Below are positions 3,531 through 38,509 of a DNA stretch of 38,509 nucleotides, piece after piece. Position 1 is the first letter of the stretch, and each line of letters opens with the position of its first letter. The notes beneath the pieces were generated by a model. That model saw only the letters and a list, made by a program, of their open reading frames with translations, had not been told where the DNA came from and searched no databases. The DNA is from a virus: IMG/VR virus record IMGVR_UViG_3300033149_004340, positions 1 to 38,509 of that record; one strand, given 5' to 3'. The position numbers and the translations under genes were made by a program.

Positions 3531-4029
3531 ACACAGGGGCCTTATCGACAGAACCGCCCTTCGGTCTCTTCTTAATCATTACCACGATATCATCCGGCGT
3601 CGTTGGAATCGTTCCATACCACCCCAAGAAATCCTGTCCGACCGCTGGCAGCGTGCCCGCGACTTGGGCTTCGGTGAGGGATCCTCTATCTACGGGAGCG
3701 CATATGTCTACGGCAATCCATCCGTGGGTCGCAACGTCTGGATCGGCCCCAACGTTATTCTTGATGGCAGTGGCGGACTTACAATTGGGAGCCGTGTGTC
3801 AATATCCGCCGGGGTCGCGGTTTACACCCACGATTCTATCGGATGGGCTCTCGGAAAAAAAGACGAATGCTCATATGAACCAACACGAATTGGGGATTGT
3901 GTCCATATCGGTCACGGGGCGGTGGTCTTACGAGGAAGTGTAATCCCTTCTTTTACCATCGTTCCGGCTCTGGCAAAGATAACCCGCAAGTCCCGGCGCA
4001 ACCCGCGAACCTGGACAATGGAGGGCTAG
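3508..4029 (+). CDS. Left-handed beta-helix acyltransferase (WbbJ/maltose acetyltransferase-like)
   Basis: This 173-aa protein has hexapeptide-repeat coils from about residue 60 to 145 (YGSAYVYGNPSVGRNVWIG, then LTIGSRVSISAGVAVYTHDS and RIGDCVHIGHGAVVLRGSV). The YTHDS segment at 106-110 is where such transferases place the catalytic His. Members move acetyl from acetyl-CoA to a sugar hydroxyl or amine. The C-terminus jumps from GSVI straight to FTIVPALAKITRK, as if the coil that normally precedes the closing PAKxxRK segment were missing, so activity is uncertain. GGGAGGA precedes the ATG at 3508. Codon use looks less GC-biased than in the acetyltransferase that follows, suggesting separate acquisition. 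The sugar substrate is unknown. Confidence 0.8.
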   Translation: MERRNVTKHRGLIDRTALRSLLNHYHDIIRRRWNRSIPPQEILSDRWQRARDLGFGEGSSIYGSAYVYGNPSVGRNVWIGPNVILDGSGGLTIGSRVSISAGVAVYTHDSIGWALGKKDECSYEPTRIGDCVHIGHGAVVLRGSVIPSFTIVPALAKITRKSRRNPRTWTMEG

Positions 4030-4032
4030 GCC

Positions 4033-4545
4033 ATGACCGACACACGCGAATACGTTTACCGACACCCGTCCGCGTTCGTGGAGACCGACGACATCGGCCC
4101 CGGCACGTCCATCTGGCATTTCTGCCACGTCAGCAAGGGCGCTCGACTCGGCGTCGATTGCACCCTCGGTCAGAACGTTTACATCGGTCCCGACGTGCAC
4201 ATCGGCGACCGCGTGCGCATTCAGAATAACGTCTCCGTTTACCAAGGAGTGACCCTGGAAGACGACGTTTTTATCGGCCCTTCGGCCGTCTTCACCAACG
4301 TCCGCCGACCGCCGGCGGAGAGCCGCGAGGACTTCCTTCCCACTCTCGTTCGGCGCGGCGCCGTCATCGGCGCCAACGCGACCATCGTCTGCGGCGTGAC
4401 CATCGGCGAGAGCGCCTTCATTGCCGCCGGCGCCGTCGTTACCAAGGACGTCCCGCCGGGCGAGACCTGGGGCGGCGTCCCGGCCAAACGGCTGCCGGAG
4501 AAGAGCGACCTGGAAGAGCTACGACGGACAGTTAAGGAGACATAA
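4033..4545 (+). CDS. wbpD-like: WbpD/WlbB-like UDP-amino-sugar N-acetyltransferase
   Basis: This 170-aa left-handed beta-helix protein matches the family that N-acetylates the 3-amino group of UDP-2-acetamido-3-amino-2,3-dideoxy-glucuronate, using acetyl-CoA. Diagnostic segments are IWHFCHV (27-33), LGQNVYIG, RIQNNVSVYQGV (62-73), FIGPSAVFTNV (80-90) and TLVRRGAVIGANATIVCGV (104-122), closing with AAGAVVTKDV. The family tail is replaced by PGETWGGVPAKRL, which resembles other beta-helix transferases. GGAGGG precedes the ATG at 4033 and the next gene starts immediately after the stop. The dehydrogenase and aminotransferase of the same pathway are on the opposite strand, near 34 kb and 38 kb. 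Confidence 0.88.
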   Translation: MTDTREYVYRHPSAFVETDDIGPGTSIWHFCHVSKGARLGVDCTLGQNVYIGPDVHIGDRVRIQNNVSVYQGVTLEDDVFIGPSAVFTNVRRPPAESREDFLPTLVRRGAVIGANATIVCGVTIGESAFIAAGAVVTKDVPPGETWGGVPAKRLPEKSDLEELRRTVKET

Positions 4546-5733
4546 ATGACCGGCCTTAAGATACTCTTCGGCCCCGTAATAACCGCCGGCAACCTGACCG
4601 TCCTGTCCTCTATTCTACGGACACGCGGCCACGAGACGTTGGTAATCGACTACTTCCCCAATTACCTGAAATACCCGTCCGACGTCGCCTACGCCGGACC
4701 CATTCAACAGATCCGTCCCTTCGCCGAACGCTGCGTCGAGCACGCCCAGGAAGCCGACATCATCGTCCTCGACTTCCTCTGCTCCTTTCTTGACTTACCC
4801 ATGTTCGGTGTTAAACTATGTGATAGGTATTACGAGGACGTCGAGCGGCTTCGCGCCCTCGGCAAGCCCGTCTTCATGTGCGTGTGGGGATCCGACGTCC
4901 GGTCCCAATCACACCTTCACTATTACCACCTGCGGTATAGCGGCGTAGACAGCCCCTATCCGCCCCAACAACTGCCCGCCCAAAGAGAGAGAGTTCAACG
5001 GCTCGACGAACTTGGCGTCATCTGGCTTGGTCACAAGCACTTCCGTGACGTCATCCCTCGCTCGGTTCCCTTCTGGGAAACCGGCATCGTGATGGATGAC
5101 TGGTCTCCTCGACCGGCCAAGCCCGCCTTCGAAGGAGTCATCGTGACCGGCTCGACCGACCGCCGGAAGAAGAATATAGGCATCGTAGAGAGCGGCGTCG
5201 CTCAGGCCGGGCACAAGTTGACTATCCTCGAAGGCATACCACACAGCCAGATGGCGGAAGCAGTGCGCGACGCGGACATAGCCTTCCCCCAAGTCTCCGA
5301 GAGCTACGGGCTTTTCGCCGTAGAGATGATGGCGATGAACATCCCTGTCGTCTGCGGTTACGACCCAAGGTTCCCGACCCACCGGGACGAGGCCCCGATA
5401 CACCGGGTAGGCTCGTTCCAGGAAATCGGTCCCGCTTTGGAAGCCGCGTCTCAGGTCGCAAACGCGAACAGCCGCGACTTCGTAGCCGAATACCACGACA
5501 TGGACAAGATCGCCGACCATCTCGTCCGTTACATCGAACAGGCTCTCGACGGCGATGTCGAACAGGTCGAGTTCCCGGAATGGCGCACGCCTCCGACCGA
5601 CTTCTCCTATTACGACGTGTCCATTCCTTACTTCCTCGAAACAGGCGCCACGACGCGCGCCCGTATCGAGATTACCGAGGCGCTGGCATTCGGCTATGAA
5701 GTCCGCCAGTATGCCCATCTTTTAACCCCTTAA
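4546..5733 (+). CDS. GT-B fold glycosyltransferase (GT4-like)
   Basis: This 395-aa protein is probably a retaining glycosyltransferase. The N-terminal half has a Rossmann-like start (LKILFGPVITAGNLTVLSS). The C-terminal half has VTGSTDRRKKNIG (200-212) and the donor-binding segment SESYGLFAVEMMAMNIPVV (251-269), with the paired glutamates typical of GT4 enzymes. There is no signal peptide or membrane segment, so it should act in the cytoplasm. AAGGAG lies inside the end of the acetyltransferase gene and the ATG abuts its stop, so they form one translational unit. It presumably transfers the sugar finished by its neighbours, to an unknown acceptor. Confidence 0.85.
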   Translation: MTGLKILFGPVITAGNLTVLSSILRTRGHETLVIDYFPNYLKYPSDVAYAGPIQQIRPFAERCVEHAQEADIIVLDFLCSFLDLPMFGVKLCDRYYEDVERLRALGKPVFMCVWGSDVRSQSHLHYYHLRYSGVDSPYPPQQLPAQRERVQRLDELGVIWLGHKHFRDVIPRSVPFWETGIVMDDWSPRPAKPAFEGVIVTGSTDRRKKNIGIVESGVAQAGHKLTILEGIPHSQMAEAVRDADIAFPQVSESYGLFAVEMMAMNIPVVCGYDPRFPTHRDEAPIHRVGSFQEIGPALEAASQVANANSRDFVAEYHDMDKIADHLVRYIEQALDGDVEQVEFPEWRTPPTDFSYYDVSIPYFLETGATTRARIEITEALAFGYEVRQYAHLLTP

Positions 5734-22390: not shown

Positions 22391-22514
22391 GCTCGCAGCG
22401 ACATCGTTGAGCTATACGATCTTCGCCGCGACGGGAATCAACTGGTTCCTGTTTGGCTACGGTGGCTACGGACGGCAACGCTACGGCTATTCTCCATACG
22501 GTAGAGCATCATGA
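22359..22514 (+). CDS. Small Gly/Tyr-rich phage protein, 51 aa
   Basis: An ATG at 22359 opens a 51-codon frame (TGA at 22512-22514). It has a Thr/Leu N-terminus (MPTPVSLTWTKLAATSLSYT) and a C-terminus rich in Gly and Tyr (GYGGYGRQRYGYSPYG). Small proteins of this form precede fibre genes in many phages. It overlaps the upstream gene by 32 bp and its stop overlaps the fibre start (ATGA), giving translational coupling. No ribosome binding site is clear, so the call rests on composition and placement. Confidence 0.55.
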   Translation: MPTPVSLTWTKLAATSLSYTIFAATGINWFLFGYGGYGRQRYGYSPYGRAS

Positions 22515-25500
22515 GCATAACTTGGACAGACAAATTCAAGATGGCCCTGATCGATGCCAGTCAGGGCCTATTGGGAGCGAGCGGGGGCGACCGGTTCTGG
22601 GACGGATACGAGCGCATTACCCGGAGCATTCAGGACGTCGCCCTTGAGAGTATCATGCGCGGCAACGGGCCGAAGGCGAATCCGAGCCTTCGGGTAGGAA
22701 GCTCGACTTATCAGGTCTCATTCGACGCGCATGATCAGATTATCAACGGGACCATCGTGCCCATTGCGGCGTCCGCCGATATCACGATATCGACGACGAA
22801 CGCCGGCGCTGACACGCCGCTGTTGACGTATCTTTACGCGACCGCCGGAGGGACCGTCACGGTGTCCACGACGCGGCCGTCAGTCGATACCGACTACGGT
22901 CCGATTGGTTTCGTGATCGCCGGAGGCACGACCGACACGGCGACTATCGTCTCCTTGGGGCCAGTCAGGGCGGCAACGGTCAATGTCGGCGGCATTACGG
23001 CGGACAGCGACGTTGATTGGACCGGCGACCATAGCTTTGCCGGTTCCGTTTCCTTCAACGGCACGGTCGCTCATACGGGGGCGGTTACCTATTCGGGGGC
23101 GGAGACTCATTCGGGTGAGGAGACCCATTCGGGGGCGGAGATTCACTCTGGAACCGAGACCCATTCTGGAGTCGAGACCCATTCCGGAACGGTAACTTAC
23201 GATGGGGTGATAACCCACGGCGGAACGGTAACCCACAACGGAGCGGCCATCTTCTCGGGGACCGCGACCTTTTCGGGAGACGTTACACATTCCGGCGAGG
23301 TCTCCCATTCGGGCTCCGTCTCTTTTACGAGCTCCGTTTCTTTCGATGGTTCCACTGCTTTCAGCGGCTCCGTCTCATTTGCGGGTTCTACCGCCTTCGC
23401 GAGTTCCGTCGCCTTTACGGATTCCGTCTCCTTCGCGGGTTCCGTCTCTTTCACCGGCTCCGTAGACCTGGGAAAAGCCAGTCTCCGACTCTACAATGTC
23501 CGCGAATACGGTGCGCAGGGCGACGGGGTAACGGATGACTTCTCCGCTATCGATGACGCCATCAACGCAGCGGCGGCCGCCGGCGGGGGCATAGTCTATT
23601 TCCCTGCGGGGACGTATCACATAGGGACTAACGACTACTGGACTTTATCAAGCAATATCGTCATCAGGGGCCAGGGACCGGTTTCGCTCATCGACGTTTC
23701 CAGTGCTACGGTTAAACAATACAACGGTATGTTCCGGGCGACGGGCGCTCTCACGGCCACGACCGCTACACCTTCGACCAGTATCTCTAACGGGGACGTA
23801 AAGATAATCGTCGATTCCTCATCCGGCTTCGCCGAAGGCGATCTAATCATGATTTCCTCGGACGAAACGTGGAGTTGGGGAACCTTCGATACCCCTGTCG
23901 GCGAATTCGCGGTCGTCCGCGCTATCCCAAGTGCTACCGCCATCGACGTGTCTTGGAAAATCGAAGATGATTATACGGTCGCGGATAACGCCCTCGTTAC
24001 CCTGGTGAATCCGGTCAGGAATATTACGATTGAAAATATTAAATTCCTGGGACGGACTTTCACCGAGGGAACAGACGGCACTATGGGAGCCAATATCATA
24101 TACGGGGAGAATATCAATTTCCGCAACGTATCGGCGGAATTGCTCGCTCAGACCGTCGAGTTCAGCAGCGTCTTGTATGGGAATATCTCCGGCTGTCACA
24201 TCATCAATGATCCAACCTATAATGTTGACGCCCAACCTTATGGAATCAATTACGGCGATGCTTGCTCTCACGTTCGTATTACGGGTAACTATGTCCGAAG
24301 CGGTCGTCATGGCATCGACCAGGATTTCATCAGCAACTCGCCCGGCATCTGCCGTCACATTCTTATCGAAGGGAATGAACTGGAAGGTATCTTCGCGAAT
24401 GCCATCGCCACCCACGCCGGAGTGGAGGATTTGCGCATTATCGGCAACGATGTTGTCGCGGGGCCGCAAGAGGCGGGGAACAATCCGAACGGCATTGAGG
24501 TCAACGTAGGGCGGGCCGTAATCGCCAATAACTATATCCAAGGAGCCCACCACGGAATCAAATCGACATTTGTGCCCGAAGAGCTCACCATAGAGAACAA
24601 TATCATCCTTGATGTCGTCGATATAGGTATCTATCTGGACGAGCAAGAGGCTACGAGTCCTCTAAGGAACGTCGCAATCGTCGGCAACGTCATTACGGGG
24701 AAAGCGGATGCGGCCTGTATTTGGATCGACTTTGATACCAATGGAGGGGAAGGCTTTGCAATCGTAGGCAACACCCTGGACGGCGGCCAGCAAGGTATCG
24801 GCCTGGATAGCGACAGCGGCGTCTTCGAGGGGATTCAGATTAGCAATAACGTCATTCGCGGGATAAGCGGAGGCGAGTGTCTTCTCGTAGAGAACGCCCG
24901 CCGCTGTCATATCAAGGGAAACAGGACTGACGGGGGGACATACGGGATTCGCCTGACGGGAGCCTCGACAGAGTACAACGTAGTGGCTATGAATCTCTGC
25001 ACGAGTGCGAGCACGAGCAATATCACACTTACCGGCACCGATAATAAGGTGTTCAGTAACCTGGATGGTTCCGACTGGTCCGACGATGCCACGGGTATGC
25101 CGGAAGAAGGAACCATGAACCTGGAAAATCTCGCCAAGAACGGCGCTTTCGATACATGGAGCGGCGGCGGCTCGGCTGCGCCCGATAATTGGACCTTGCT
25201 CGGGGGAGGTTCGGTAGCTCAAGAGAACGGCTCGGGCAATGTCCAAGAGGGGACATACAGTTGCAAGCTGACTGGTGATGCCAACGGCAATCGTATTTAC
25301 CAGACAATTATTGCGACCATCTCCGATACGCAGAACACACGCTGGCGCGGCATGGACGTAACTGCCGGTGCGTGGATAAAGACCACGAGCGGCAATACGG
25401 CGCGGCTCTATTTCGAAGACGGGGTGGGCTATCAGTATTCGGACTTTCATACCGGGAGCGGCAATTGGGAATGGATTTCAGTGACGTTCACCATTGATGC

Positions 25501-25627
25501 TTCGGCAACGGAACTTGAGTTATCGTGTTCGACAGCGAATGACGCCGCGCCCGCTTACTTCGATTGTATCCACCTGAACATTGGCACGTATGGGTCGGCT
25601 TTCAGACGGCACCGTTCGGACCCCTAA
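22511..25627 (+). CDS. Tail fibre/spike with hexapeptide shaft and pectate-lyase-like beta-helix
   Basis: This 1038-aa protein is the likely host-recognition fibre. Residues 1-170 resemble a virion-attachment region. Residues 173-316 are 24 consecutive six-residue repeats of the xVxFxG / xExHSG type, expected to form a slender trimeric shaft. A pectate-lyase-3-like right-handed beta-helix begins near 327 (NVREYGAQGDGVTDD) and runs to about 840, with repeated ITIENI, VRITGN and ILIEGN-type rungs. Residues about 868-1030 resemble a carbohydrate-binding jelly-roll (NGAFDTWSGG...). It probably binds or cleaves a surface polysaccharide. Specific enzymatic residues could not be assigned. Confidence 0.88.
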   Translation: MSITWTDKFKMALIDASQGLLGASGGDRFWDGYERITRSIQDVALESIMRGNGPKANPSLRVGSSTYQVSFDAHDQIINGTIVPIAASADITISTTNAGADTPLLTYLYATAGGTVTVSTTRPSVDTDYGPIGFVIAGGTTDTATIVSLGPVRAATVNVGGITADSDVDWTGDHSFAGSVSFNGTVAHTGAVTYSGAETHSGEETHSGAEIHSGTETHSGVETHSGTVTYDGVITHGGTVTHNGAAIFSGTATFSGDVTHSGEVSHSGSVSFTSSVSFDGSTAFSGSVSFAGSTAFASSVAFTDSVSFAGSVSFTGSVDLGKASLRLYNVREYGAQGDGVTDDFSAIDDAINAAAAAGGGIVYFPAGTYHIGTNDYWTLSSNIVIRGQGPVSLIDVSSATVKQYNGMFRATGALTATTATPSTSISNGDVKIIVDSSSGFAEGDLIMISSDETWSWGTFDTPVGEFAVVRAIPSATAIDVSWKIEDDYTVADNALVTLVNPVRNITIENIKFLGRTFTEGTDGTMGANIIYGENINFRNVSAELLAQTVEFSSVLYGNISGCHIINDPTYNVDAQPYGINYGDACSHVRITGNYVRSGRHGIDQDFISNSPGICRHILIEGNELEGIFANAIATHAGVEDLRIIGNDVVAGPQEAGNNPNGIEVNVGRAVIANNYIQGAHHGIKSTFVPEELTIENNIILDVVDIGIYLDEQEATSPLRNVAIVGNVITGKADAACIWIDFDTNGGEGFAIVGNTLDGGQQGIGLDSDSGVFEGIQISNNVIRGISGGECLLVENARRCHIKGNRTDGGTYGIRLTGASTEYNVVAMNLCTSASTSNITLTGTDNKVFSNLDGSDWSDDATGMPEEGTMNLENLAKNGAFDTWSGGGSAAPDNWTLLGGGSVAQENGSGNVQEGTYSCKLTGDANGNRIYQTIIATISDTQNTRWRGMDVTAGAWIKTTSGNTARLYFEDGVGYQYSDFHTGSGNWEWISVTFTIDASATELELSCSTANDAAPAYFDCIHLNIGTYGSAFRRHRSDP
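23027..23458 (+). repeat. In-frame 18-bp repeat array, 24 hexapeptide units
   Basis: Twenty-four contiguous 18-bp units (432 bp) each encode a hexapeptide ending mostly in Gly, with His, Phe or Tyr at position 4. An early block is dominated by ExxHSG-like units, such as GAG ACC CAT TCG GGG. A later block is dominated by SVSFxG-like units, such as TCC GTC TCT TTC. The two blocks suggest separate expansions. This is fibre-shaft coding DNA, not CRISPR. Confidence 0.9.
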
Positions 25628-26446: not shown

Positions 26447-27136
26447 TTCCAGTCCCCAGGCGTCCCAACCCGGCGCCCGTTCGCGAGCGAACAGCTCGAT
26501 CCTAGGAAGGTCCCCCAGGAGAGTCACGATACGGTCCCGAACTTCGTCGGGCTTTTGGCTATGCTTCCGCACAGGAGAGACCACCAATTGACGGACGGCC
26601 TTGTTAATACGACGGGGCCGTCCTTTTACACCTAACAGACACAGTTCTACGTTTGCCCGAGTCCAATATCCCATCCCCACGTGCCACTTACCGTGCTTGG
26701 TCGTCTTGGCCCAGGAGAAGGCGGCCGTCTTGTATTTGAACCCCCAAGATTCCATGACCGAAAAAGCCTCGGGAAGCATCGGCAGCGTTGCCCAAAGGAA
26801 TAGAGCGCAGTCAGGGGCCGCGATAGCTCCGACATCTATACAGGCAATATTGTCGGGGAGCATGGTGGTGTAGTGAGAGTCGGCGCTACGGCCGGTTCCG
26901 GTGTCTCGACACCAGACTTTGAATCTCCACGGAGGGTCGGCGTAGATGATGTCGTATCTACGCCCATCGCGGATAAGTTCTTCAAGGCAAGTTCCAGGCC
27001 AGGAGCGGCCTCTGTCGCCTTGCGGAACGCCGCTATCGCTCCCTCGTTGTCCCCCAGATTCCTCTTCGCCACACCGATGTTGTTCCAGCTCAGGGCGTCG
27101 TCCGGTTTGATCGTGACTACCTTCTCGTGCGCGCAT
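26441..27136 (-). CDS. MT-A70 family DNA adenine methyltransferase
   Basis: The product shows YDIIYADPPW (the DPPW catalytic motif of N6-adenine methyltransferases), then HYTTMLPDNIACIDVGAIA, LFLWATLPMLPEA and a KPDEVRDRIVTLLGD segment, all typical of phage MT-A70 enzymes. It would methylate adenine in DNA, for example to evade restriction. The start is uncertain. The only usable in-frame starts are ATG 27136 (GGAAGGA upstream) and ATG 27151, both inside the upstream glycosyltransferase, so about 65 N-terminal residues would be read from a frame shared with its TPR region. A frameshift joining the two genes is the alternative. Confidence 0.85.
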   Translation of the reverse strand: MRAREGSHDQTGRRPELEQHRCGEEESGGQRGSDSGVPQGDRGRSWPGTCLEELIRDGRRYDIIYADPPWRFKVWCRDTGTGRSADSHYTTMLPDNIACIDVGAIAAPDCALFLWATLPMLPEAFSVMESWGFKYKTAAFSWAKTTKHGKWHVGMGYWTRANVELCLLGVKGRPRRINKAVRQLVVSPVRKHSQKPDEVRDRIVTLLGDLPRIELFARERAPGWDAWGLEL

Positions 27137-28305
27137 AGTGCTTCCTTCCATTCGTTTTGGGCCAGGAAGACCTGTCCCATGTTCGCGTATATCTCCGCTT
27201 CGAAGGGGGGATGCGGCTCAAAGGCCAGCGATTGCCGCCACGCGGTCAAGGCTCGTTGGTAGCCGCCGAACTTGGCGTGCATGTTGCCGATGTGGAAGTA
27301 GGCCACGTAGCCCAGACCGATACAGTTCAGGATATAGTGATGCCCCGCCGGACAGGTTCGCTCCTTCTCTTCGGCATAGAGATAGTGCTCGAAGAGGGTT
27401 ACGACCTCAAGGCTATCCCCGCCGTCTTCCGTTAACAACTCGGCCAGCACGTAGAGAGCGTCGATATAATTCGGATCCTCCGCCAGCGCCGCCCGGCAGT
27501 CGCGGATGGCCGAACGCCGGTCGCCCAGGGCGCGGCACATAATGGCCCGCATGTAGCGTCCCATTTGCTGGATCTCCGAACCGTTGGGGGAATATTCGAT
27601 GGCGCGGGCGGCGTGGACCAGACCGGCATCGAATTCCCGCAGGTTATTCAGACAGACGCAGAGATTGTAATGCTGGAAGCCGTTTGTCGGATCGTCTTCC
27701 AAAGTCTTATAGAGCAACCCCTTGGTCCGCGTCCACTTGCGGCGCATCTCTTCCGGGCTTAGGCCGTAGCCCTTGTGTATGATGCGTATCGGCAAGGTCT
27801 CCGTTCGTCCGGGAGAGTGAAGCTGATTGTGCACGCGGCCGTGATAGAAGTAGTCCTTTCTGTTTCGGAACAGGCGGGGATTGTAAGGTATCCCCCATTG
27901 CGCCCCTCCGTCGAAGGTCAGGTTGATATTCGGACACATGACGACATCGATATCGTTCCGATTGACCGTCTTCCGGATGAGCGCGTGTTGGTCCTTCTCG
28001 ATATACTCATCGGCGTCGAGTATCAGGATCCAGCCTCCGGTCGCGGCCATAAGACTGACGTTCCGGGCTTTCGAGAAGCTGTCTTCCCAAGGCTCGTGAA
28101 TGACCTTGGCGCCGGCGGCCTCGGCTATCTCCACCGTCCGGTCAGTCGAACCGGTATCGACGATTATCATTTCATCGACCAGACCTTGGACGCTTTTCAG
28201 GGCCTCCGGCAGGTCGCGCTCCTCATCGCGGACGATCATGCACAGGCTGATAGTCGGGCGCGGCCGGATTGCTTTACGGGGGCGTTTTCGTTTCGGTTTG
28301 ACCAT
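26836..28305 (-). CDS. GT2 family glycosyltransferase with TPR domain
   Basis: This 489-aa protein starts with a GT-A GT2 domain: TISLCMIVRDEERDLPEAL (18-36), MIIVDTGSTDRTVEIA, and LDADE (96-100) as the DxD-type metal site. Residues about 195-445 are helical TPR repeats (FQHYNLCVCLNNLREFDAGL, ALSWNNIGVAKRNLGDNEGA). SunS-like and other TPR-linked GT2 enzymes modify proteins or polysaccharides; the acceptor here is unknown. AAGGAG precedes the ATG at 28305. The TPR similarity ends near ALKNLSAMG. The last 40 residues are low-complexity and read over the methyltransferase frame, as if the natural stop were lost. Confidence 0.85.
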   Translation of the reverse strand: MVKPKRKRPRKAIRPRPTISLCMIVRDEERDLPEALKSVQGLVDEMIIVDTGSTDRTVEIAEAAGAKVIHEPWEDSFSKARNVSLMAATGGWILILDADEYIEKDQHALIRKTVNRNDIDVVMCPNINLTFDGGAQWGIPYNPRLFRNRKDYFYHGRVHNQLHSPGRTETLPIRIIHKGYGLSPEEMRRKWTRTKGLLYKTLEDDPTNGFQHYNLCVCLNNLREFDAGLVHAARAIEYSPNGSEIQQMGRYMRAIMCRALGDRRSAIRDCRAALAEDPNYIDALYVLAELLTEDGGDSLEVVTLFEHYLYAEEKERTCPAGHHYILNCIGLGYVAYFHIGNMHAKFGGYQRALTAWRQSLAFEPHPPFEAEIYANMGQVFLAQNEWKEALCAHEKVVTIKPDDALSWNNIGVAKRNLGDNEGAIAAFRKATEAAPGLELALKNLSAMGVDTTSSTPTLRGDSKSGVETPEPAVAPTLTTPPCSPTILPV

Positions 28306-29565: not shown

Positions 29566-30063
29566 TTATCCATCCTCACGCGTCTCCGTTTTCGCTGTTT
29601 TCTTGACAGGGCGGACGACTTCACGAACGGCCAACAGGTCGGTGCGTTCCGCCGGCACCATGTTACCTTCGTCATCGCGACAGGTTCGACAGTAGAGGCG
29701 CAGTCTACCGGGAACTTCGTCACGAGCCAGCCGTTCGGTAATGGCGACGCCGCGCCGAATGGTGTATTCCTTCTCTACCGTTTCGACGATACGCTTAACT
29801 GTCCCGTCGTCCTCGGTCTCGTGTCGGACCTTATCAACGAATCGCGTGAACCGCTGGCGTCCGCAATAGGGACACCGCAGGTTGGCGATGTGTGGATAGT
29901 CGCGGATCGGCAGCATGACCAGACGATCCTGGTCGAGCGCCGGTTCGACAGGCGGACGGTCCGGTTCCGGGGGCTTATGCCCTTCCGGAATATAAGTTCC
30001 GACAGCTTCCACACTGACAATCTCTTCTCTTCCTTTAGGCAGTCTGGGTTTTTTGGGGGACAT
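29566..30063 (-). CDS. Zinc-ribbon protein, 165 aa
   Basis: GAAGGAG precedes the ATG at 30063. A Pro-rich N-terminus is followed by CPYC (about residue 64) and CRTC (about residue 125), which together can bind one zinc. A charged middle has KEYTIRRGVAITERLARDE and the tail is Lys/Arg-rich. It lies between the polymerase and the DUF3987 ATPase, so a replication or single-strand DNA role is possible. No known family is recognised. Confidence 0.65.
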   Translation of the reverse strand: MSPKKPRLPKGREEIVSVEAVGTYIPEGHKPPEPDRPPVEPALDQDRLVMLPIRDYPHIANLRCPYCGRQRFTRFVDKVRHETEDDGTVKRIVETVEKEYTIRRGVAITERLARDEVPGRLRLYCRTCRDDEGNMVPAERTDLLAVREVVRPVKKTAKTETREDG

Positions 30064-30117: not shown

Positions 30118-32622
30118 TCACTTACATTCTTTCCAGTTGCGGCCCCAAGCGATCTCGACGGGTATCGTTATCTCGTGCCGACCGATCCTCATGGGGCGCT
30201 CCATGTAGCCGCGAATGGTGGGCTCGTATTCTTCTTCTTTCCCCTCGGGAACCTGACCTACGATGGCATCATGGACCTGTAGGAGCAGCTGGACATCGGT
30301 CTTTTTGAACAGGTCGATCAGCGCTTGGCCGATGACCCAACAAACCACGTCTTGGGGGATAAAGCTCAGTGCTTTCCTTACATCATGGCCGGAGATGAAA
30401 GGCCCGTGCGGTCGAATAAGTAGACGTCTCCTGGTGGGAGAACGGATAGCACGTCGCTGTTTAACCACTCGTTCAACCGTCCTTTGCCAAAGGACAATCT
30501 TGTGGTAGATCGTTTTGAAGCGAGCAAGGAGGAGCTTGCAGTCGGCTTCGCTGATGTCGCGTGCGTAATCGTCTTCAAGGATAAGATTACGAAGTGTCCG
30601 AGGCCCCATTCCGTAATTGAAACCGTGGCCCGCTCTTTTGGCGAGGTAGCGTTGATCAGGTGTGACGTCTTCCTCAGCAACCCCGAAAAGGCGGGCCGCG
30701 TTATACGTATGTATGTCAACGTTAGCACGAAGTTTCTCCAAAAGGTTAGTGTCGTCGGCTAGGGCGGCGACGACCCAGGTTTCGGCGCGTTCCAGGTCGG
30801 CCTGGAACATGATCATTCCAGGATCGGCTATGAACATGGCCCGCTCCTCCGGCGAGCGGTTTTGGAGATTGGTCCCGCTGCCGTCGAAGGACTTGCGCGA
30901 GGCCAACCGGCCCGTATCCGTGCCGTGGATACGGTAAGAGCAACGGCATCGGCCGTCGGCATCGGTAGCGACCTGTAGGGCTTTCGAATAGAAGTTCTGT
31001 AGCTCGTTTACCTTTCGGAAAGCCTCAAGGAGAGGCGGTATCTTCCCGTGGCGGCGTTGGAAATGTCGAAGCAGACGGATGACCGCCTCTTCATCGACCG
31101 AGGCCCGCCCGGTTTTCTCCGTCCGCTTCTGGACGGGCCAGCCGAGGTCTTCGTGGAACAGCCGAGCGACCTGCTGTTGACTGCCCCAGTTGATGGAGAT
31201 TTCCTTCGCCAATGCGCGGGCTTTGCCGATAGCGCGGCCCTTGAACGGCGGGGAAAAGAATTCATCCCAAATCGAACCGGCCCGTGAAGCGATTTCCGGA
31301 GCCGCGAGACAGGAAAGATAATGAGATAATCTATTAATCTCTTTAGTCGTTTCCCGTTTCATAGCGGAACGCTTTCGGATGTCGATCTTAATCCCGCGTT
31401 TCTGCATCGCCAGCAGAGGTTCGGGAAGCTTCATTACGTAGTTGAAGAATAAATCGCTGAGGCCGGCGCGCTCAAGCTCGGCCTCTAACTTTTGAGCGAT
31501 CTCCCAGGTGGCAAGGCAGTCGGTGGCGTTATATCGCCAGAGCCGGTCGATACTGTCGATCTCAAGAGCGGCGGAATCATCCTCATCTTCCTTGGCGTCG
31601 CGCCATTTTATCTGATCCTTGAAATATGGTCTTGACGTATACAGGGAAGCCAGAAACCCGAGATCGTGAGCGGACGCCGAATCGAGCGTATGATGGGCCA
31701 GCATGGTATCGAGGTAGAAGTCTGCACATCCGATTCCGAGCTTGCCGAGATACCATAGGTCGAAGCTGGCGTTTTGTCCGACGAAGCGGCGGCGGGAAGA
31801 GAAAAATCGTTTCAAGTTGGACAATAGGGCCAGCTCTTCCTCCAAGGTCCAATACGACTCTAGGAGATCGCCAACTTGTCGCACGAAAGGGATTACGAGT
31901 GCATTGTGGATACCATCCGCTATCCCTAAACACGCGACGGTCCTCCCGATACGCTCGATGTCGAAGGCTATGACTTCTCCGGCCGTATTTAGCCATTCCA
32001 TCGTCTCCTTGAAGGTCGGATTGATTAGGATTCGGTCCTCTTCTTCGTATGTGATCGGGATGCCCCGAAGCGCCTCGGCGACCGTTTTAAGATCATGGAG
32101 CGCGAGGCCGTAGTTTCGGGGCGACCTTCCGGGCAGTAGATTAGCCGGATGGAAGGTAGGTATAACGGTGCATTCCCGTCCTCCGATTTCCACTCGATAA
32201 ATTGAACCGCGTAGCTTGGTGATACCACGCTTTCCAAGAAGCGCACTAATAGCTTCGTTTCCGAGGGGGACAACGATCTCAGGTTCGACAGAAGCAAGTT
32301 CATCGAAAAGCTCTTGCTTGGACCATTGGAGGATCGTAGGCGCGTGTCTGCGGAAGAGATCGAAGTCATTATCCGGCGGGCGATACTTGACAACGTTGGT
32401 GAGATAAGGGAGTCGGGTGATTCCCGCATCGCCCAGGATTCTATTGAGCAACTTACCGGCGCGGCCAACAAAGGGACGGCCTCTTTCTTCTTCTTCTTCA
32501 CCAGGGGCTTCTCCTATTAAGACCAACCGGGCCTTCGAAGGACCGGAGGGTCCGACGTAGGGAAAGCCGGCGGCCTCCATTTCGGGTATGCGGCCGGGAT
32601 CCTTGAATTCAGACTGTCCCAT
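30118..32622 (-). CDS. Uracil-DNA-glycosylase-like / 3'-5' exonuclease / family A DNA polymerase fusion
   Basis: This 834-aa protein is the replicative polymerase. The ATG at 32622 follows GGGAAGGAG; the ATG 12 codons earlier lacks a ribosome binding site. Residues about 30-185 are a UDG-superfamily domain (GEAPGEEEEERGRPFVGRAG, then FHPANLLPG). Residues about 215-390 are a DnaQ-like exonuclease with Asp221/Glu223, Asp288 and Asp368. The family A polymerase (about 400-834) has Asp609/Glu614 (motif A), the O-helix with Lys662, His666 and Tyr670 (motif B) and VHD with Asp785 (motif C). No cysteine occurs before residue 151, so the Fe-S cluster of family 4 glycosylases is absent. Confidence 0.92.
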   Translation of the reverse strand: MGQSEFKDPGRIPEMEAAGFPYVGPSGPSKARLVLIGEAPGEEEEERGRPFVGRAGKLLNRILGDAGITRLPYLTNVVKYRPPDNDFDLFRRHAPTILQWSKQELFDELASVEPEIVVPLGNEAISALLGKRGITKLRGSIYRVEIGGRECTVIPTFHPANLLPGRSPRNYGLALHDLKTVAEALRGIPITYEEEDRILINPTFKETMEWLNTAGEVIAFDIERIGRTVACLGIADGIHNALVIPFVRQVGDLLESYWTLEEELALLSNLKRFFSSRRRFVGQNASFDLWYLGKLGIGCADFYLDTMLAHHTLDSASAHDLGFLASLYTSRPYFKDQIKWRDAKEDEDDSAALEIDSIDRLWRYNATDCLATWEIAQKLEAELERAGLSDLFFNYVMKLPEPLLAMQKRGIKIDIRKRSAMKRETTKEINRLSHYLSCLAAPEIASRAGSIWDEFFSPPFKGRAIGKARALAKEISINWGSQQQVARLFHEDLGWPVQKRTEKTGRASVDEEAVIRLLRHFQRRHGKIPPLLEAFRKVNELQNFYSKALQVATDADGRCRCSYRIHGTDTGRLASRKSFDGSGTNLQNRSPEERAMFIADPGMIMFQADLERAETWVVAALADDTNLLEKLRANVDIHTYNAARLFGVAEEDVTPDQRYLAKRAGHGFNYGMGPRTLRNLILEDDYARDISEADCKLLLARFKTIYHKIVLWQRTVERVVKQRRAIRSPTRRRLLIRPHGPFISGHDVRKALSFIPQDVVCWVIGQALIDLFKKTDVQLLLQVHDAIVGQVPEGKEEEYEPTIRGYMERPMRIGRHEITIPVEIAWGRNWKECK

Positions 32623-32944
32623 CGGGGATCTCCTTCCCGGTGCCTTGGCAGTCTTCATGATATCCAGGGTGATATTTTGCTATCTCCCCATTATATGGCA
32701 CTCCTTCTACAGCGTCGTCTAATCCACGATTGAACCAAAATATACTCATTTTATTTTCCTCACACGTCGGGCACACCTTTTCCTTTATCGGCCGCCCGCA
32801 TTGGTAGCAATACGTCGCGTCCTGGGACATCCAGCGGTCGCCTTCATCGGCATCGAAAAAATAGATGACAACGAATTGCGCTCCACAGTGAGGGCATTCG
32901 TTATAGGGGAACTCTCTAGGGAAAAGAAGTGTCGCTTTTTTCAT
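32609..32944 (-). CDS. Cysteine-rich zinc protein with DnaJ-type C-terminal knuckle, 111 aa
   Basis: Two rubredoxin-like pairs, CPHC and CYQC (17-20 and 46-49), form one zinc site. A third pair CPTC (58-61) and a C-terminal HEDCQGTGKE resemble a DnaJ-type CxxCxGxG knuckle with one Cys replaced by His. The ATG at 32944 overlaps the upstream stop (ATGA). The codons of its C-terminal TGKE also provide the ribosome binding site for the DNA polymerase, whose ATG lies inside its end. Function unknown; the zinc sites suggest a nucleic-acid or protein-interaction role. Confidence 0.7.
   Translation of the reverse strand: MKKATLLFPREFPYNECPHCGAQFVVIYFFDADEGDRWMSQDATYCYQCGRPIKEKVCPTCEENKMSIFWFNRGLDDAVEGVPYNGEIAKYHPGYHEDCQGTGKEIPDGTV
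32620..32641 (-). promoter_or_regulatory. Shine-Dalgarno and start of the DNA polymerase embedded in the upstream CDS end
   Basis: On the minus strand the element reads ACCGGGAAGGAG, then ATC, then CCCGATG. It encodes TGKEIPD in the upstream gene and gives GGAAGGAG plus the ATG of the polymerase. An almost identical element lies at 35947-35968. Confidence 0.7.
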
Positions 32945-33195
32945 TCGGCTGTCTCCTCCAAAGGGAAGAAATACTCGTCTCCTTCTTCTGCATAGCCCTC
33001 TTCTATCATCTCAGCCGTCACCGGACATTTGCGCGCAGGTCTACAATCGCCTGAGTAGTCGTGGCACGGCATTAGGTCGTTCACGGGACACCCGCATCCG
33101 CAGTCGGGGTTGCATAGCCCGTCTGCTCCCATCTTTTCTAACATCTCCTGGACCATTCTAAATACGGTCATAGGGTCTCGCCTATCTCTCGACAT
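32941..33195 (-). CDS. Cysteine-rich small protein, 84 aa
   Basis: The middle carries a compact cysteine cluster, CNPDCGCGCPVNDLMPC followed by C...C (about 28-57), with no CxxCxGxG. The same CPV-DL-PC arrangement occurs in small proteins of other phages as I remember them, but no function is known. The ATG at 33195 lies 14 bp inside the end of the upstream 110-aa gene, and the stop overlaps the next start (ATGA). It may bind zinc or iron. Confidence 0.6.
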   Translation of the reverse strand: MSRDRRDPMTVFRMVQEMLEKMGADGLCNPDCGCGCPVNDLMPCHDYSGDCRPARKCPVTAEMIEEGYAEEGDEYFFPLEETAE

Positions 33196-33514
33196 CTATC
33201 CCCTTTCCCGGCCAGCCGCGTGCAGCCGATACCTCAAGCATCATGTATACAAGGTCTTCGAGCTTCTTCAGCGCATAGTGCGGATTGTCCTTGGTCATCT
33301 TCAAGGGAATCCCGCCTACGCACTCGGCCCAATCCTCGGTCGCGTGGACGAACCAGACCTCGAACGAAAAGGACCACGGGTTGTAATAAACGCCGCATTC
33401 CGTTACGTTTTCTATATTCGTGAGCTGTTTATCCTTCCTGATTCCGTCGAAGAACGTCTCGGGATCTTGAAGGATATCCAAAGTGAAGACACGGTTTGGC
33501 CCTCCGTTAGTCAT
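33182..33514 (-). CDS. Hypothetical protein, 110 aa
   Basis: The ATG at 33514 has GGAGAGGAG upstream and overlaps the dehydrogenase stop by 8 bp. An upstream in-frame start, 13 codons earlier, was rejected. The product has a mixed alpha/beta look (FTLDILQDPETFFDGIRK, then a Trp-rich YYNPWSFSFEVWFV) and no cysteine pairs. No family is recognised. It belongs to the sugar/cysteine-rich operon by overlap. Confidence 0.6.
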   Translation of the reverse strand: MTNGGPNRVFTLDILQDPETFFDGIRKDKQLTNIENVTECGVYYNPWSFSFEVWFVHATEDWAECVGGIPLKMTKDNPHYALKKLEDLVYMMLEVSAARGWPGKGIDVER

Positions 33515-34349
33515 GACAGCTCCTCTCCTGTGCCAGGGACAGAATACGGACAACTCGCTCGCCCTCGCCGCCGTTGGTTATCGGGGCGCGGTCGTTCTCA
33601 ATACACTCGATAAAGTGTCTCATTTCCTGTTTCAGGGGCTCTGGATCCTCGGCCGGCACGTAGTCATTGAACTCGTATGTCCGTCCGTTCTCTCCATAAG
33701 TATTGACTGTAAAGGTTCGCTTGGGCGGGCTGTAATTGTGCCCGAACTCGATACGGGCGCTGACGGCGCGGACGGGCCATTCGAGTTCGATATACCCCAG
33801 GGAGTGGGACGTTCGACACCGGATGACGGATGGTTCCTCGCGCATAAAACCGAGGACCATCGATACGTCATGGGGGGCGAGGCGCCATAGGGCGCTCTCC
33901 TGGTAGTGAGGCTCCTGGTTCTTGATTCGGACGGCGCGGATATGCCGTATTTCTCTAGGGTCTATCTCTTCCTTGAGCCGTTGGAAGCCGGCGTGATAGT
34001 GCATAATGTGACCGACCATGAGGACTCTCCGATGGTCGAGAGAGAGACGGTGAAGATCCTGCGCTTCCCGCCGGTTCATGCACATGGGCTTCTCTACGAA
34101 GACGTGCTTACCTGCCTGTAAAGCTTGAGCGGCAAGACTGTAATGGAACTCGGAAGGGGTGGCTATGGCGACGGCATCTATGTCGTCGGCGCACTTCACC
34201 AAATAGTCGGCCCCCGGTAATTGATAGACTCCCCGGAGGGATTCTTTCGATATTCTCGGGTCTACGATTGCCTTGAGCACACCGAGTTCACTCAGCACTC
34301 GCGCGATGTTCTTGCCCCAACGTCCGCAACCAATTAATGCCGTTTTCAT
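33507..34349 (-). CDS. wlbA-like: Gfo/Idh/MocA dehydrogenase, WlbA/WbpB-like
   Basis: This 280-aa protein has the NAD-binding motif GCGRWG (7-12) and the catalytic EKP (Lys87). The opening GCGRWGKNIARVLSELG strongly resembles WlbA/WbpB, which oxidise UDP-GlcNAcA at C3 so that an aminotransferase can add the 3-amino group. It is short of the usual 310-350 residues, with a compact C-terminal beta domain. Its ATG overlaps the stop of a mini beta-helix gene. The aminotransferase (38.2 kb) and WbpD-like acetyltransferase (4.0 kb) complete the pathway. Confidence 0.85.
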   Translation of the reverse strand: MKTALIGCGRWGKNIARVLSELGVLKAIVDPRISKESLRGVYQLPGADYLVKCADDIDAVAIATPSEFHYSLAAQALQAGKHVFVEKPMCMNRREAQDLHRLSLDHRRVLMVGHIMHYHAGFQRLKEEIDPREIRHIRAVRIKNQEPHYQESALWRLAPHDVSMVLGFMREEPSVIRCRTSHSLGYIELEWPVRAVSARIEFGHNYSPPKRTFTVNTYGENGRTYEFNDYVPAEDPEPLKQEMRHFIECIENDRAPITNGGEGERVVRILSLAQERSCHD

Positions 34350-34558
34350 TAAACCTTCCTTCCTCGGATGGTTGCCCGGTCCGGTATCTCAGTATTGTCG
34401 GGAACGACGACGAAGGGACCGATAAAGACACCCGATCCGATGGTGCAGTTACGCCCTATCTTGGCGGTTTTCTCTACGTGGGTCCAAGGCCCTATGATTG
34501 TGTCCTCGCCAACGTCGTCCGTTTCTACGATAGCCGTGGGATGGATCCGAGCACCCAT
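34349..34558 (-). CDS. Mini left-handed beta-helix protein, 69 aa (WbpD-like N-terminal fragment)
   Basis: The whole protein is hexapeptide coils (IHPTAIVETDDVGEDTIIG, TAKIGRNCTIGSGVFIG). It resembles the start of the 170-aa WbpD-like protein at 4033 but lacks the catalytic coils, the FTNV segment and the C-terminal helix. It keeps an intact start, follows the XRE stop directly (TAGATG) and overlaps the dehydrogenase start. It could be a remnant acetyltransferase whose function was taken over by the plus-strand gene, or a stand-alone partner. Acetyltransferase activity is unlikely. Confidence 0.7.
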   Translation of the reverse strand: MGARIHPTAIVETDDVGEDTIIGPWTHVEKTAKIGRNCTIGSGVFIGPFVVVPDNTEIPDRATIRGRKV

Positions 34559-34774
34559 CTATCCTTCCCACGTTCCTGCAAGCCAGTCCAAGGGCACCCC
34601 CAGGGCCTTCGCTATCTGAACCGCGTTGGTCAGTGAGGGCTCTCGCCGGCCCGTTTCGAAGTGGGATAAATGAGTGCGATCCATTTGAGGAACGATTAGC
34701 TCTCCGAGTTCTTTTTGGGTAAGCCCCCGCCAGTGGCGGGCCTGTCGTAATCTCTCAGCGAATAGTTTTACCAT
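34559..34774 (-). CDS. XRE-family helix-turn-helix regulator, 71 aa
   Basis: The protein is essentially one lambda-repressor-like HTH domain: LTQKELGELIV (18-28), then DRTHLSHFETGRREPSLTNA (32-51) as recognition and loop region. It probably controls phage transcription, perhaps its own operon. The ATG at 34774 overlaps the end of the M15 gene, with GGGAG upstream. No integrase or partner repressor is seen, so lysogeny is not supported by it. Confidence 0.85.
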   Translation of the reverse strand: MVKLFAERLRQARHWRGLTQKELGELIVPQMDRTHLSHFETGRREPSLTNAVQIAKALGVPLDWLAGTWEG

Positions 34775-35472
34775 CTTACTCTCCCTCTTGGGTCTAAGAC
34801 GTGAACGTGTATCCAGACCTTGCGGCCGGTGCCTTCACAGGCGGGGCAGCCTTTCCATCCCCCCAAATCTCCTCTACCTCCGCAGTCCTTGCACTCCTCA
34901 TCATACAGATGCCATCCGCCGTAGTGAATAGGCTCATACAGGGCGTTCAGGGCTTCCATTGCGGGGATGTCCAGGGTCCAGGGGGCGACATTTTCTCCGT
35001 TACACCGGCGGCAAGGCATGGTGCCCGTGCCCATCGGATCCCCTGGGATTGGGTCGGAGCCGTCGTGGTAAGCGGGTCTGCGTCCCGTGCCGTGGCATTC
35101 AGGGCAAACCTCTCGTCTTTTCACCTGGAAATCACAGGCGAAAGAGAAGTGCAGAAGTTTCTTGCCGCTATAGAACCATTCAAACGCGGGGTCGAAAATT
35201 ATCTCACTGCCCTCCGCGACGCGCCTCGGTAGGTGCCAGCTCTTCTTCGCGCCGCCCACCGCAGCGTTATGCTTGGGGCAACGGCATCCGGACGTGGGGA
35301 ATAGGCCATATTCCAAAGGCATATTGCCCAACCTTGCGTAATGCACATTCAACCACGCCCGCATCTGTTCCAGCATGGCTACGACTGATGGGTGTATATT
35401 GTCCCAACCGCAACAGGGACAAGCGAATTCTCGACGGCTAAAGTGGGGGCTAAGGTCTCCCATCATTTTCAT
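34768..35472 (-). CDS. M15 peptidase (possible endolysin) with two DnaJ-like zinc-knuckle insertions
   Basis: This 234-aa protein has the M15A D-Ala-D-Ala carboxypeptidase layout: LSPHFSRREFACPCCG (7-22), SGCRCPKHN (61-69), His80 (KKSWH), Asp114 (ACDF) and IHVHV with His222/His224, which supply the zinc ligands. Family members cut peptidoglycan stem peptides and often serve as phage endolysins. Two insertions interrupt it: 119-165 with CPECHGTG and CRRCNG, and 191-217 with CKDCGGRG and CPACEGTG. Each carries four cysteines, enough for its own zinc. Candidate starts are the ATG at 35472 and two ATGs shortly after it. No signal peptide or membrane anchor is seen. Confidence 0.75.
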   Translation of the reverse strand: MKMMGDLSPHFSRREFACPCCGWDNIHPSVVAMLEQMRAWLNVHYARLGNMPLEYGLFPTSGCRCPKHNAAVGGAKKSWHLPRRVAEGSEIIFDPAFEWFYSGKKLLHFSFACDFQVKRREVCPECHGTGRRPAYHDGSDPIPGDPMGTGTMPCRRCNGENVAPWTLDIPAMEALNALYEPIHYGGWHLYDEECKDCGGRGDLGGWKGCPACEGTGRKVWIHVHVLDPRGRVRW

Positions 35473-35699
35473 TCCTCCGTTTCTTGGCGAGCCTCCTCGT
35501 CGCGCTGATACCTACCCCTTGGGCGGATATACGAGAGCTTTCCGTCCGGATTGCAGTCCGGGCAGGGAATAGGCTTCACCAACCCCATCGTTACAGACAG
35601 GGCGCTCTGCACGGGCAACGTTTCCCAAACCCACCACGCGCTCTGCTCATCGTCGTTGGCTATAAAATGGCAGTCGTCGCATCGGTCACACTTGCTCAT
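35469..35699 (-). CDS. Cysteine-rich small protein, 76 aa
   Basis: The N-terminus has CDRCDDCHF (4-12) and the C-terminal half has PCPDCNPDGK, which could together hold one zinc. The tail is Glu/Arg-rich. The ATG at 35699 lies inside the end of the upstream gene, with its ribosome binding site GAGGAG formed by the codons of EE in that gene's C-terminal EEAPDEQV. Its stop overlaps the next start (ATGA). Function unknown. It belongs to a run of cysteine-rich genes between 32.6 and 36.7 kb. Confidence 0.65.
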   Translation of the reverse strand: MSKCDRCDDCHFIANDDEQSAWWVWETLPVQSALSVTMGLVKPIPCPDCNPDGKLSYIRPRGRYQRDEEARQETEE

Positions 35700-35949
35700 C
35701 AGGGGCCTCCTCGTCCGGACCTTCCCAAAGCGCCTCTTCCTCGGCTTCGGATAGCTTGCCGGGGTAGCTGATTACCTGCATCCCACCTCGGTCAAAAGTG
35801 GCGACGAATTGTTCTTTGTGCCTGCCGTTGCTCACGCGCACGAGTGCCCTACCCTCATTGGAGTTTCCCAGGGGCTCTCTGCTCACCCACACCATTACAT
35901 TCCCAGCATCTATCCACAGCGACTCGCCGTGATTTGTCTCAATCTTCAT
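35686..35949 (-). CDS. Hypothetical protein, 87 aa
   Basis: The start is the ATG at 35949 inside the end of the upstream gene (GAAGGAG formed by its TGKE codons). A longer frame starting at 36018 was rejected because it lacks a ribosome binding site and runs over the upstream gene. The product is beta-rich (NVMVWVSREPLGNSNEGRAL), without cysteines, and ends in EEAPDEQV. No family recognised. Confidence 0.6.
   Translation of the reverse strand: MKIETNHGESLWIDAGNVMVWVSREPLGNSNEGRALVRVSNGRHKEQFVATFDRGGMQVISYPGKLSEAEEEALWEGPDEEAPDEQV
35697..35715 (-). promoter_or_regulatory. Shine-Dalgarno embedded in the upstream CDS end (third junction copy)
   Basis: On the minus strand the element reads GACGAGGAGGCCCCTGATG. 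It encodes DEEAPD near the end of the 87-aa protein and gives GAGGAG and the ATG of the 76-aa gene. It resembles the elements at 32620-32641 and 35947-35968 but the upstream knuckle codons are absent. Confidence 0.55.
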
Positions 35950-36742
35950 CGGGGGCCTCCTTCCCGGTGCCCCCGCAGTCGGGGCAGATATCACGACACT
36001 GGATAGGGTATAAGTCACCTTCTCGGTCAGGGTCGCCAGAGTCTAGGGCCATTTCTCGGGTGACCGGTGCAAGCTCTTCCCACTCGACCTCGCAGCGACC
36101 TTTGCACGTCGGGCACACCCCGACCTCCGAACTATCATGCTTTACTTCCATTTCTCGGCGGGCCTCAGCCTTCTCCACATACTCAGGATCACCAATAACC
36201 CAAGCACCCTCTTTGGCGGAATCTGCTACAAGCTCTTTGAACTCTCGCCAGCATCTTGCGTCCCGCTCTGCGATGGCGAGGTCCCGCTTGAGGCTTATTA
36301 TTTCCCTATCTTTATTCATGCATAGAACGTAAAGTTCCTGGGCAGCGAGCGCTTGTGCTTGCGCTTGCAATAGATATCCGCGCTTCGCCCGGTTCGCCCT
36401 TAAAAAGAGTTCTCGGTCCCGCCTTCCAAGCAACACCAGTCGATTATGGTCGTCCTCCCATCCCTGTTCCAACTCCTCCACCCTGGCCTTGAGCCGGTCC
36501 CTCTCGGCCTCTAGATCTTGCAGAGCAATCCTCAGACGAGCTATCGTGGAGGCTAGTTCTCTGGTTCGCAACAACCGCTTGACCGAAGCTTCCTCGTTCT
36601 CGGTCTTAAGTCCCTCGCTCCGGTTTTCACGGTGCAGTTGCTCAACCTCGGACTCCTGGTAGCGAGCTCGAAATTCCTCGTTTTCTCGCTGATAGCTGGC
36701 TATTATTTTATGCCTGTATCTCCGGTAAAGTTGACCGATCAT
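35939..36742 (-). CDS. Coiled-coil protein with C-terminal DnaJ-like zinc knuckle, 267 aa
   Basis: Residues about 20-120 and 130-175 form long coiled coils (for example EEASVKRLLRTRELASTIAR). The C-terminus has CPTCKG followed by CRDICPDCGGTGKE, two CxxCxG elements that can form a DnaJ-like zinc site. The ATG at 36742 overlaps the stop of the preceding 63-aa gene. The end overlaps the next gene, whose ribosome binding site is encoded by its TGKE codons. It may be a scaffold for protein complexes; function unknown. Confidence 0.65.
   Translation of the reverse strand: MIGQLYRRYRHKIIASYQRENEEFRARYQESEVEQLHRENRSEGLKTENEEASVKRLLRTRELASTIARLRIALQDLEAERDRLKARVEELEQGWEDDHNRLVLLGRRDRELFLRANRAKRGYLLQAQAQALAAQELYVLCMNKDREIISLKRDLAIAERDARCWREFKELVADSAKEGAWVIGDPEYVEKAEARREMEVKHDSSEVGVCPTCKGRCEVEWEELAPVTREMALDSGDPDREGDLYPIQCRDICPDCGGTGKEAPDED
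35947..35968 (-). promoter_or_regulatory. Shine-Dalgarno and start embedded in the upstream CDS end (second junction copy)
   Basis: On the minus strand the element reads ACCGGGAAGGAG, then GCC, then CCCGATG. It encodes TGKEAPD in the 267-aa gene and gives GGAAGGAG plus the ATG of the 87-aa gene. It differs from the polymerase junction (32620-32641) only in the codon between the two blocks (GCC versus ATC). Confidence 0.7.
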
Positions 36743-37969: not shown

Positions 37970-38207
37970 TATCGTCTCCTTTCTCAATGCACCAGATAAT
38001 CCCGGTGAGGATAGAGAGAATAAGAAAAACGACGCCAATAGCGAACAGAAGGGCTCCGATCCAGCCTTCCCCTATCTGCACCCCTATGGTGATGAACACG
38101 GCCGCGAGGGGAGCAGCCGCGACAAAGACTCTTCCTGGTCCGCTAAAGAAGGACCAGAACCCCATGTCCTTCAACCCTATCGAGAAGCACTCAAGAAACG
38201 CTTTCAT
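37950..38207 (-). CDS. Small membrane protein, 85 aa
   Basis: GGAGG precedes the ATG at 38207, which lies 17 bp inside the end of the aminotransferase gene. Two hydrophobic stretches (VFVAAAPLAAVFITIGVQI and IGALLFAIGVVFLILSILTG) suggest two membrane helices with a short loop. Its last 20 bp overlap the next membrane protein gene. Function unknown; the placement inside a sugar operon hints at a role in glycan export or host-membrane change. Confidence 0.6.
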   Translation of the reverse strand: MKAFLECFSIGLKDMGFWSFFSGPGRVFVAAAPLAAVFITIGVQIGEGWIGALLFAIGVVFLILSILTGIIWCIEKGDDNGCLYL

Positions 38208-38509
38208 TAAGCACCTCCATCAGACGGCCAATGACGAAATCCTGATCGGCGTGGGTCAATTCATAATAGAGCGGCAACGCGATGGACCGCGTATGGACCG
38301 CGTGAGCATTCGGGAACTCGGCCGCTCCCGTATACCAGGGACGGAACCGCTCGATCATGTGGAGAGCGTGGGTGCCTTGGCGAGTCATAATGCCGAACCC
38401 TCGTAGTTTCTCCATGATGGTCTCGGCCGCCTTGAACTTCTTGTCATTGATGACGATGACGAATGCTTGCCAGCTGTGACCAGGGTGAGGACGGGGAAGA
38501 GCGAAGAGA
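38191..38509 (-). CDS. DegT/DnrJ/EryC1-type aminotransferase (C-terminal part)
   Basis: The frame is open from the window edge to the stop at 38191, giving 105 residues of the C-terminal domain. It reads HSWQAFVIVIND at the start, then LRGFGIMTRQGTHALHM, FPNAHAVHTRSIALPLYYEL and QDFVIGRLMEVL. This is the typical end of PLP-dependent sugar aminotransferases of the DegT family, such as WbpE/WlbC. They add the 3-amino group after WlbA/WbpB oxidation. The PLP lysine lies outside the window. The 85-aa membrane-protein gene starts inside its end. Confidence 0.8.
   Translation of the reverse strand, partial: LFALPRPHPGHSWQAFVIVINDKKFKAAETIMEKLRGFGIMTRQGTHALHMIERFRPWYTGAAEFPNAHAVHTRSIALPLYYELTHADQDFVIGRLMEVLNESVS

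Follow-up and report, generated by a model that had tools for sequence, protein, structure and literature searches.

A phage M15-fold protein with two insertions bearing DnaJ-like cysteine pairs

M15 endolysins are small, compact enzymes. Those of the phage Peptidase_M15_3 group (PF08291, phrog_894), among them the M15 proteins of Lelliottia phage phD2B and Vibrio phage 1.148 and a group with the motif SWHxPR (L010, L073), are about 115–145 aa long, contain H-x6-D (a few have a longer spacing), and have HxD as their terminal motif. The same fold is found in the Zn DD-peptidase of Streptomyces albus G (1lbu, M15A) and in the N-domains of hedgehog proteins, in which H-x6-D is unbroken and zinc-knuckle insertions are absent; in DD-peptidases and hedgehog, HxH is standard (PMC6027127). 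Cysteine elements of the form CxxCxGxG make up the CR domain of DnaJ (PF00684), as four contiguous repeats. The DNA polymerases of HMO-2011-type phages contain a partial DnaJ domain with two such motifs (PMC9038755, PMC6918029), placed as a single insert between domains.

Here we describe an M15 protein encoded by one virus record of 38,509 bases, analysed as a whole (hereafter the window). The protein shares FxCxCCG, SGxRC, H...D, the terminal H and RW with the phage endolysins, at a core identity of about 35–46%, but those endolysins lack its four insertions and have no CxxCxG pair of any kind. With 1lbu and the hedgehog N-domains it has the fold and the H-x-H in common. With the DnaJ CR domain it shares the cysteine elements, three of the four being full CxxCxGxG; however, it scores 14.7 bits against PF00684, below the cut-off of 32.7, it has no J-domain, and its elements are split by core residues 166–190, with spacings of 31, 40 and 15 residues. 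As in the HMO-2011-type polymerase, the insertion is made within a phage enzyme, but here two putative zinc inserts lie inside one catalytic domain. We lean towards the view that the protein is a phage peptidoglycan peptidase of M15_3/M15A fold, likely an endolysin, with structural zinc knuckles.

The M15 gene and its surroundings

The M15 gene runs from 35472 to 34768 as a minus-strand ORF coding for 234 residues, and overlaps a gene on each side.

34768..35472, minus strand: M15 peptidase gene with candidate zinc-knuckle insertions (234-aa ORF; Pfam and PHROG matches)
35469..35699, minus strand: upstream coupled ORF (76 aa, with CxxC elements of its own; context only)
34559..34774, minus strand: downstream XRE/HTH repressor-like gene (phrog_4, 4.9e-14; context only)
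29566-30063, 32609-32944, 32941-33195, 35469-35699 and 35939-36742, minus strand: proteins with CxxC or other clustered cysteines

The M15 gene shares an ATGA with the upstream ORF, its first ATG overlapping the TGA of that ORF, and its 3′ end overlaps the HTH gene, which makes it part of a row of tightly packed genes. Immediately 5′ of the first ATG stands GGAGG. Translation might instead begin at M3 (35466) or M4 (35463); both agree with the GGAGG and with the start MGDLS of relatives, and M4 yields MGDLS itself, as in many relatives.

Genes for a primase, a family A DNA polymerase (encoded separately from the insert-bearing M15 protein) and a DNA methyltransferase lie in the leftward module, along with those of numerous small proteins, while the plus strand carries the terminase, portal, major head protein and tail spike genes. 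Holin-like and lipoprotein genes come after the tail spike, apart from the M15 gene. A search for relatives of this phage via its DNA polymerase found no close one. A scan for promoters and terminators gave nothing informative.

Several other features of the window were observed. Small or coiled-coil proteins with clustered cysteines, as CxxC or otherwise, abound in the leftward module; those at 29566, 32609, 35469 and 35939 have CxxC pairs. An apparent dehydrogenase (recognised by eye), proteins like hexapeptide acetyltransferases and the C-terminal part of a DegT aminotransferase (together at 33507-34349, 34349-34558 and 38191-38415, minus strand, and 3508-4545, plus strand), with glycosyltransferases at 4546-5733 and 26836-28305, resemble a phage-borne diacetamido-sugar pathway. 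The tail spike (22511-25627, plus strand) contains short imperfect repeats (THSGxETHSG...) before the spike domain.

An M15 core with four insertions

Peptidase_M15_3 (PF08291) matches residues 10–84 only, at 26.8 bits against a cut-off of 23.2, and phrog_894 (endolysin) matches the protein at 2.7e-15. Identity to aligned M15 proteins is 29–46%, with the motifs conserved; for the N-terminal core, identity to relatives from phages, viral contigs and bacterial genomes is about 30–60%. The nearest clades have either a MGDLS...FSRxEFxCxCG start or SWHxPR.

We aligned the protein with 100 non-redundant homologues using E-INS-i, and used a 63-row alignment in the same register, for which homologues were picked because they keep that register. 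Four stretches are absent from nearly all 100 homologues (43–54, 85–111, about 118–161 and 191–217), and core columns re-align between them: AxD at 112–114, a helix and GGxxxY at 166–190, and xHx...RW at 219–234.

35221..35472, minus strand: N-terminal core, residues 1–84, with MGDLSPHFSRREFACPCCG, SGCRCPKHN and GGAKKSWH
35311..35346, minus strand: insertion A, residues 43–54; no cysteine, almost no homologue residues here
35233-35235, minus strand: predicted metal ligand H80, within GGAKKSWH of the N-terminal core
35140..35220, minus strand: insertion B, residues 85–111; no cysteine, between H80 and D114
35131..35133, minus strand: D114, second predicted catalytic-zinc ligand, invariant in the 63-row alignment
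34978..35121, minus strand: insertion C, residues 118–165, with CPECHGTG (123–130) and CRRCNGEN (154–161)
34819..34902, minus strand: insertion D, residues 191–218, with CKDCGGRG (194–201) and CPACEGTG (209–216)
34771..34818, minus strand: C-terminal core, residues 219–234, WIHVHVLDPRGRVRW, aligned to the HxD...RW end of relatives
34807-34809 and 34801-34803, minus strand: HxH motif H222/H224, in the C-terminal core

The initial annotation had described an M15 core with two four-cysteine insertions, each with two CxxCxG elements. Both insertions are real, and alignment and fold match bear this description out, but the total is four, the cysteine-free stretches 43–54 and 85–111 having been overlooked. 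Four CxxCxG elements arose in none of 20,000 composition-preserving shuffles, and three in a single one. Insertion C matches phrog_9961 (4.4e-6 over 121–167) and, below the cut-off, DnaJ_CXXCXGXG (14.7 bits), and insertion D matches phrog_3931 (2.6e-4 over 191–218); the insertions searched by themselves gave only weak, motif-level matches. Copying of the knuckles within the genome from neighbouring ORFs was considered and rejected, the likeness being limited to 6–18 residues around the motif.

A misassembly, frameshift or pseudogene could mimic an insertion-bearing enzyme, and the absence of the insertions from homologues, together with the lack of a second genome for this singleton, speaks for such an artefact. 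Yet the gene is a single continuous ORF with coupled neighbours and an intact RW C-terminal end, all four insertions are in frame and end at conserved motifs, and codon-position composition is alike across the segments of the gene. We find an artefact hardly credible on these grounds, and the misassembly that the initial annotation had associated with insertion-free homologues was not found, although homologues do lack the insertions.

Residues E15, C18, R64, C65, N69 and H80 are invariant in the 63-sequence alignment, and H80, D114 and H222 fall in invariant or near-invariant columns. The gap from H to AxD is 31 residues, compared with 4 in 136 relatives and a maximum of 16 among relatives; with insertion B between H80 and D114, the usual H-x6-D becomes H-x33-D. 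In addition, the second position of the terminal motif is D in 60 of 62 aligned relatives, while the protein described here has HVH. HxD is present in 176 of the 189 distinct M15 sequences in which the motif is readable (219 distinct hits were collected), and HxH was found once among the collected hits, in this protein. The HIH of Sonic hedgehog aligns to the same columns as H222-V-H224. The intact catalytic skeleton reported initially thus stands in that all metal-binding residues are kept, but spacing and HVH differ, so that the skeleton is not that of close relatives.

The split of H-x6-D and the change from HxD to HxH make altered or lost activity possible. The protein might not be the lysis enzyme, but an M15-fold protein that is divergent or expressed early and has a different substrate or lower activity. 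H-x33-D and HVH, unique among relatives, favour this reading, as do the position of the gene in the leftward module, coupled to an HTH gene, and the location of the holin-like genes elsewhere; the distance from the holin-like genes speaks mildly against a lysis function, and the placement in a module with an HTH regulator counts against the peptidoglycan peptidase that we prefer. Against a role outside lysis stand the retention of every metal-binding residue and the classical status of HxH in DD-peptidases and hedgehog. Furthermore, the M15 protein is the sole recognisable peptidoglycan hydrolase among the scanned proteins of the 38.5 kb, which, with its family membership, argues for a lysis function. 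We consider a non-lysis protein improbable.

Predicted fold and role of the insertions

We built an AlphaFold2 model on the 63-row M15 alignment, which guides the core. The model has a mean pLDDT of 73.8 and a pTM of 0.70; the N-terminal core is mostly confident, its ten-residue pLDDT means reaching 96, the C-terminal core less so (66–76), and the means of the insertions are about 46–75. VIA-align matches the model to 1lbu with a Z of 11.4 (114 residues, 2.6 Å) and to hedgehogs with a Z of about 7.3. Foldseek against viral models returned M15 peptidases; against the PDB it gave no significant match, and 1lbu stood out only upon realignment. In the model the M15 core is unbroken, although the alignment of M15 homologues used to build it accounts for part of the core match. 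The preserved core predicted by the initial annotation was therefore seen, with no sign of the breakage that it had named as contrary evidence, whereas, at these pLDDT values, the folding of each insertion as a separate knuckle stays a prediction of that annotation. The fragment 110–226 modelled alone reached a pLDDT of 41 and is meaningless.

From the strand order 112–121, 186–191 and 219–224, insertions C and D are predicted to leave the antiparallel sheet at the same end, and insertion D ends a few residues before H222. This topology does not sustain the initial placement of both insertions around the active site: they would share a sheet end, and it is residues 85–111 that border the metal ligands.

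In the peptidoglycan peptidase that we favour, a hedgehog/DD-peptidase core would arrange H80, D114 and the H222/H224 pair around one catalytic zinc. This core would have gained four loop insertions, two of them with CxxCxG pairs. In the reducing cytoplasm, we infer, these pairs coordinate structural zinc and so stiffen the long loops, which are predicted to lie together at one end of the central sheet. Cleavage of stem or cross-link peptides by the enzyme would follow once the holin has opened.

Alternatively, the insertions could be there for binding, not stability. Zinc modules like these often bind ligands, and those described here might anchor the enzyme to peptidoglycan, to a holin or to another phage protein, or form a lid that opens on zinc loss or cysteine oxidation in the periplasm. 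The predicted exit of C and D from one sheet end and the closeness of D to H222 fit such binding or regulation; however, nothing in the sequence separates it from a structural role, and insertion B, not the zinc loops, parts the metal ligands. We judge the anchor and the lid alike to be unlikely, and structural stabilisation by the zinc loops to be at least as likely as regulation or targeting.

A far-fetched version of such control would make insertions C and D the two halves of one CR domain (zinc 1+4 and 2+3), interleaved with the peptidase strands and acting as a latch under zinc or redox control, which would keep the endolysin shut in the cytoplasm and open it in the periplasm. The insertions joined artificially score 33.7 bits against the PF00684 cut-off of 32.7, and shuffles that keep the motifs score 21–27. 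With the order swapped, the score is almost unchanged (32.0), indicating that it mainly reflects motif content; assigning the DnaJ element order by sequence was rejected for this reason. Structural knuckles on a peptidoglycan peptidase remain our preferred explanation.

Search for the same architecture

We searched viral contigs by profile (three scans) and by exact matching to three DNA patterns specific to the architecture, as well as one genome collection, phages and plasmids (tblastn), and 1,189 sampled bacterial genomes. Among the approximately 218 other M15 proteins in the matches listed, none has CxxCxG pairs, and a single-protein viral scan by 8-mers found no relative. Two degenerate CxxCxG...[FW]xHx[DH] patterns and a stricter one gave 8, 32 and 19 hits in viral contigs, none of them M15; the hits are other small zinc proteins, terminases or chance. 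In phages and plasmids, the tblastn matches to M15 mostly concern the N-terminal core, and none covers 80%. In the 1,189 bacterial genomes, M15 matches are confined to the N-terminal core, in short ORFs, while matches to the cysteine part mostly fall in longer ORFs of 372–483 codons, probably DnaJ-like, and are otherwise short chance stretches. In the literature we found no account of M15 endolysins with zinc insertions.

With no second example in the collections searched, among the matches listed, the architecture is a singleton. The novelty proposed by the initial annotation is supported within the material searched, and rare relatives may exist.

Single cysteine motifs and paired-cysteine loops were also observed in other proteins. 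A Prevotella M15 protein (L209:880-1386) has a single CYPC in the region after the conserved motif, and no pair. A dCMP deaminase (L233, IMGVR_UViG_3300009551_000005, about 805-858, plus strand) has an insertion of ~50 residues with CTPCGTCSG and CPTCHGTG, which splits the conserved domain between GYNGG and HAEDNA. Terminase small subunits (L238, L241 and L267; Pfam Terminase_2 is shown for L238) have an internal CRYCWGEG...CPECAGLG pair, and an insertion of this type recurs across several contigs. The Terminase_2 protein and the dCMP deaminase resemble the M15 protein in having a paired-cysteine loop inside a conserved fold, with one insertion each.

A single M15 enzyme bearing four insertions, one of which separates its metal ligands while two carry putative zinc modules, shows the extent to which this fold can be decorated. 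The grafting of paired CxxCxG modules into enzyme loops by phages is recurrent and little studied, and a habit seen in polymerase, terminase and dCMP deaminase now extends to a cell-wall enzyme. Should the modules turn out to be regulatory, they would represent a new means of endolysin control.
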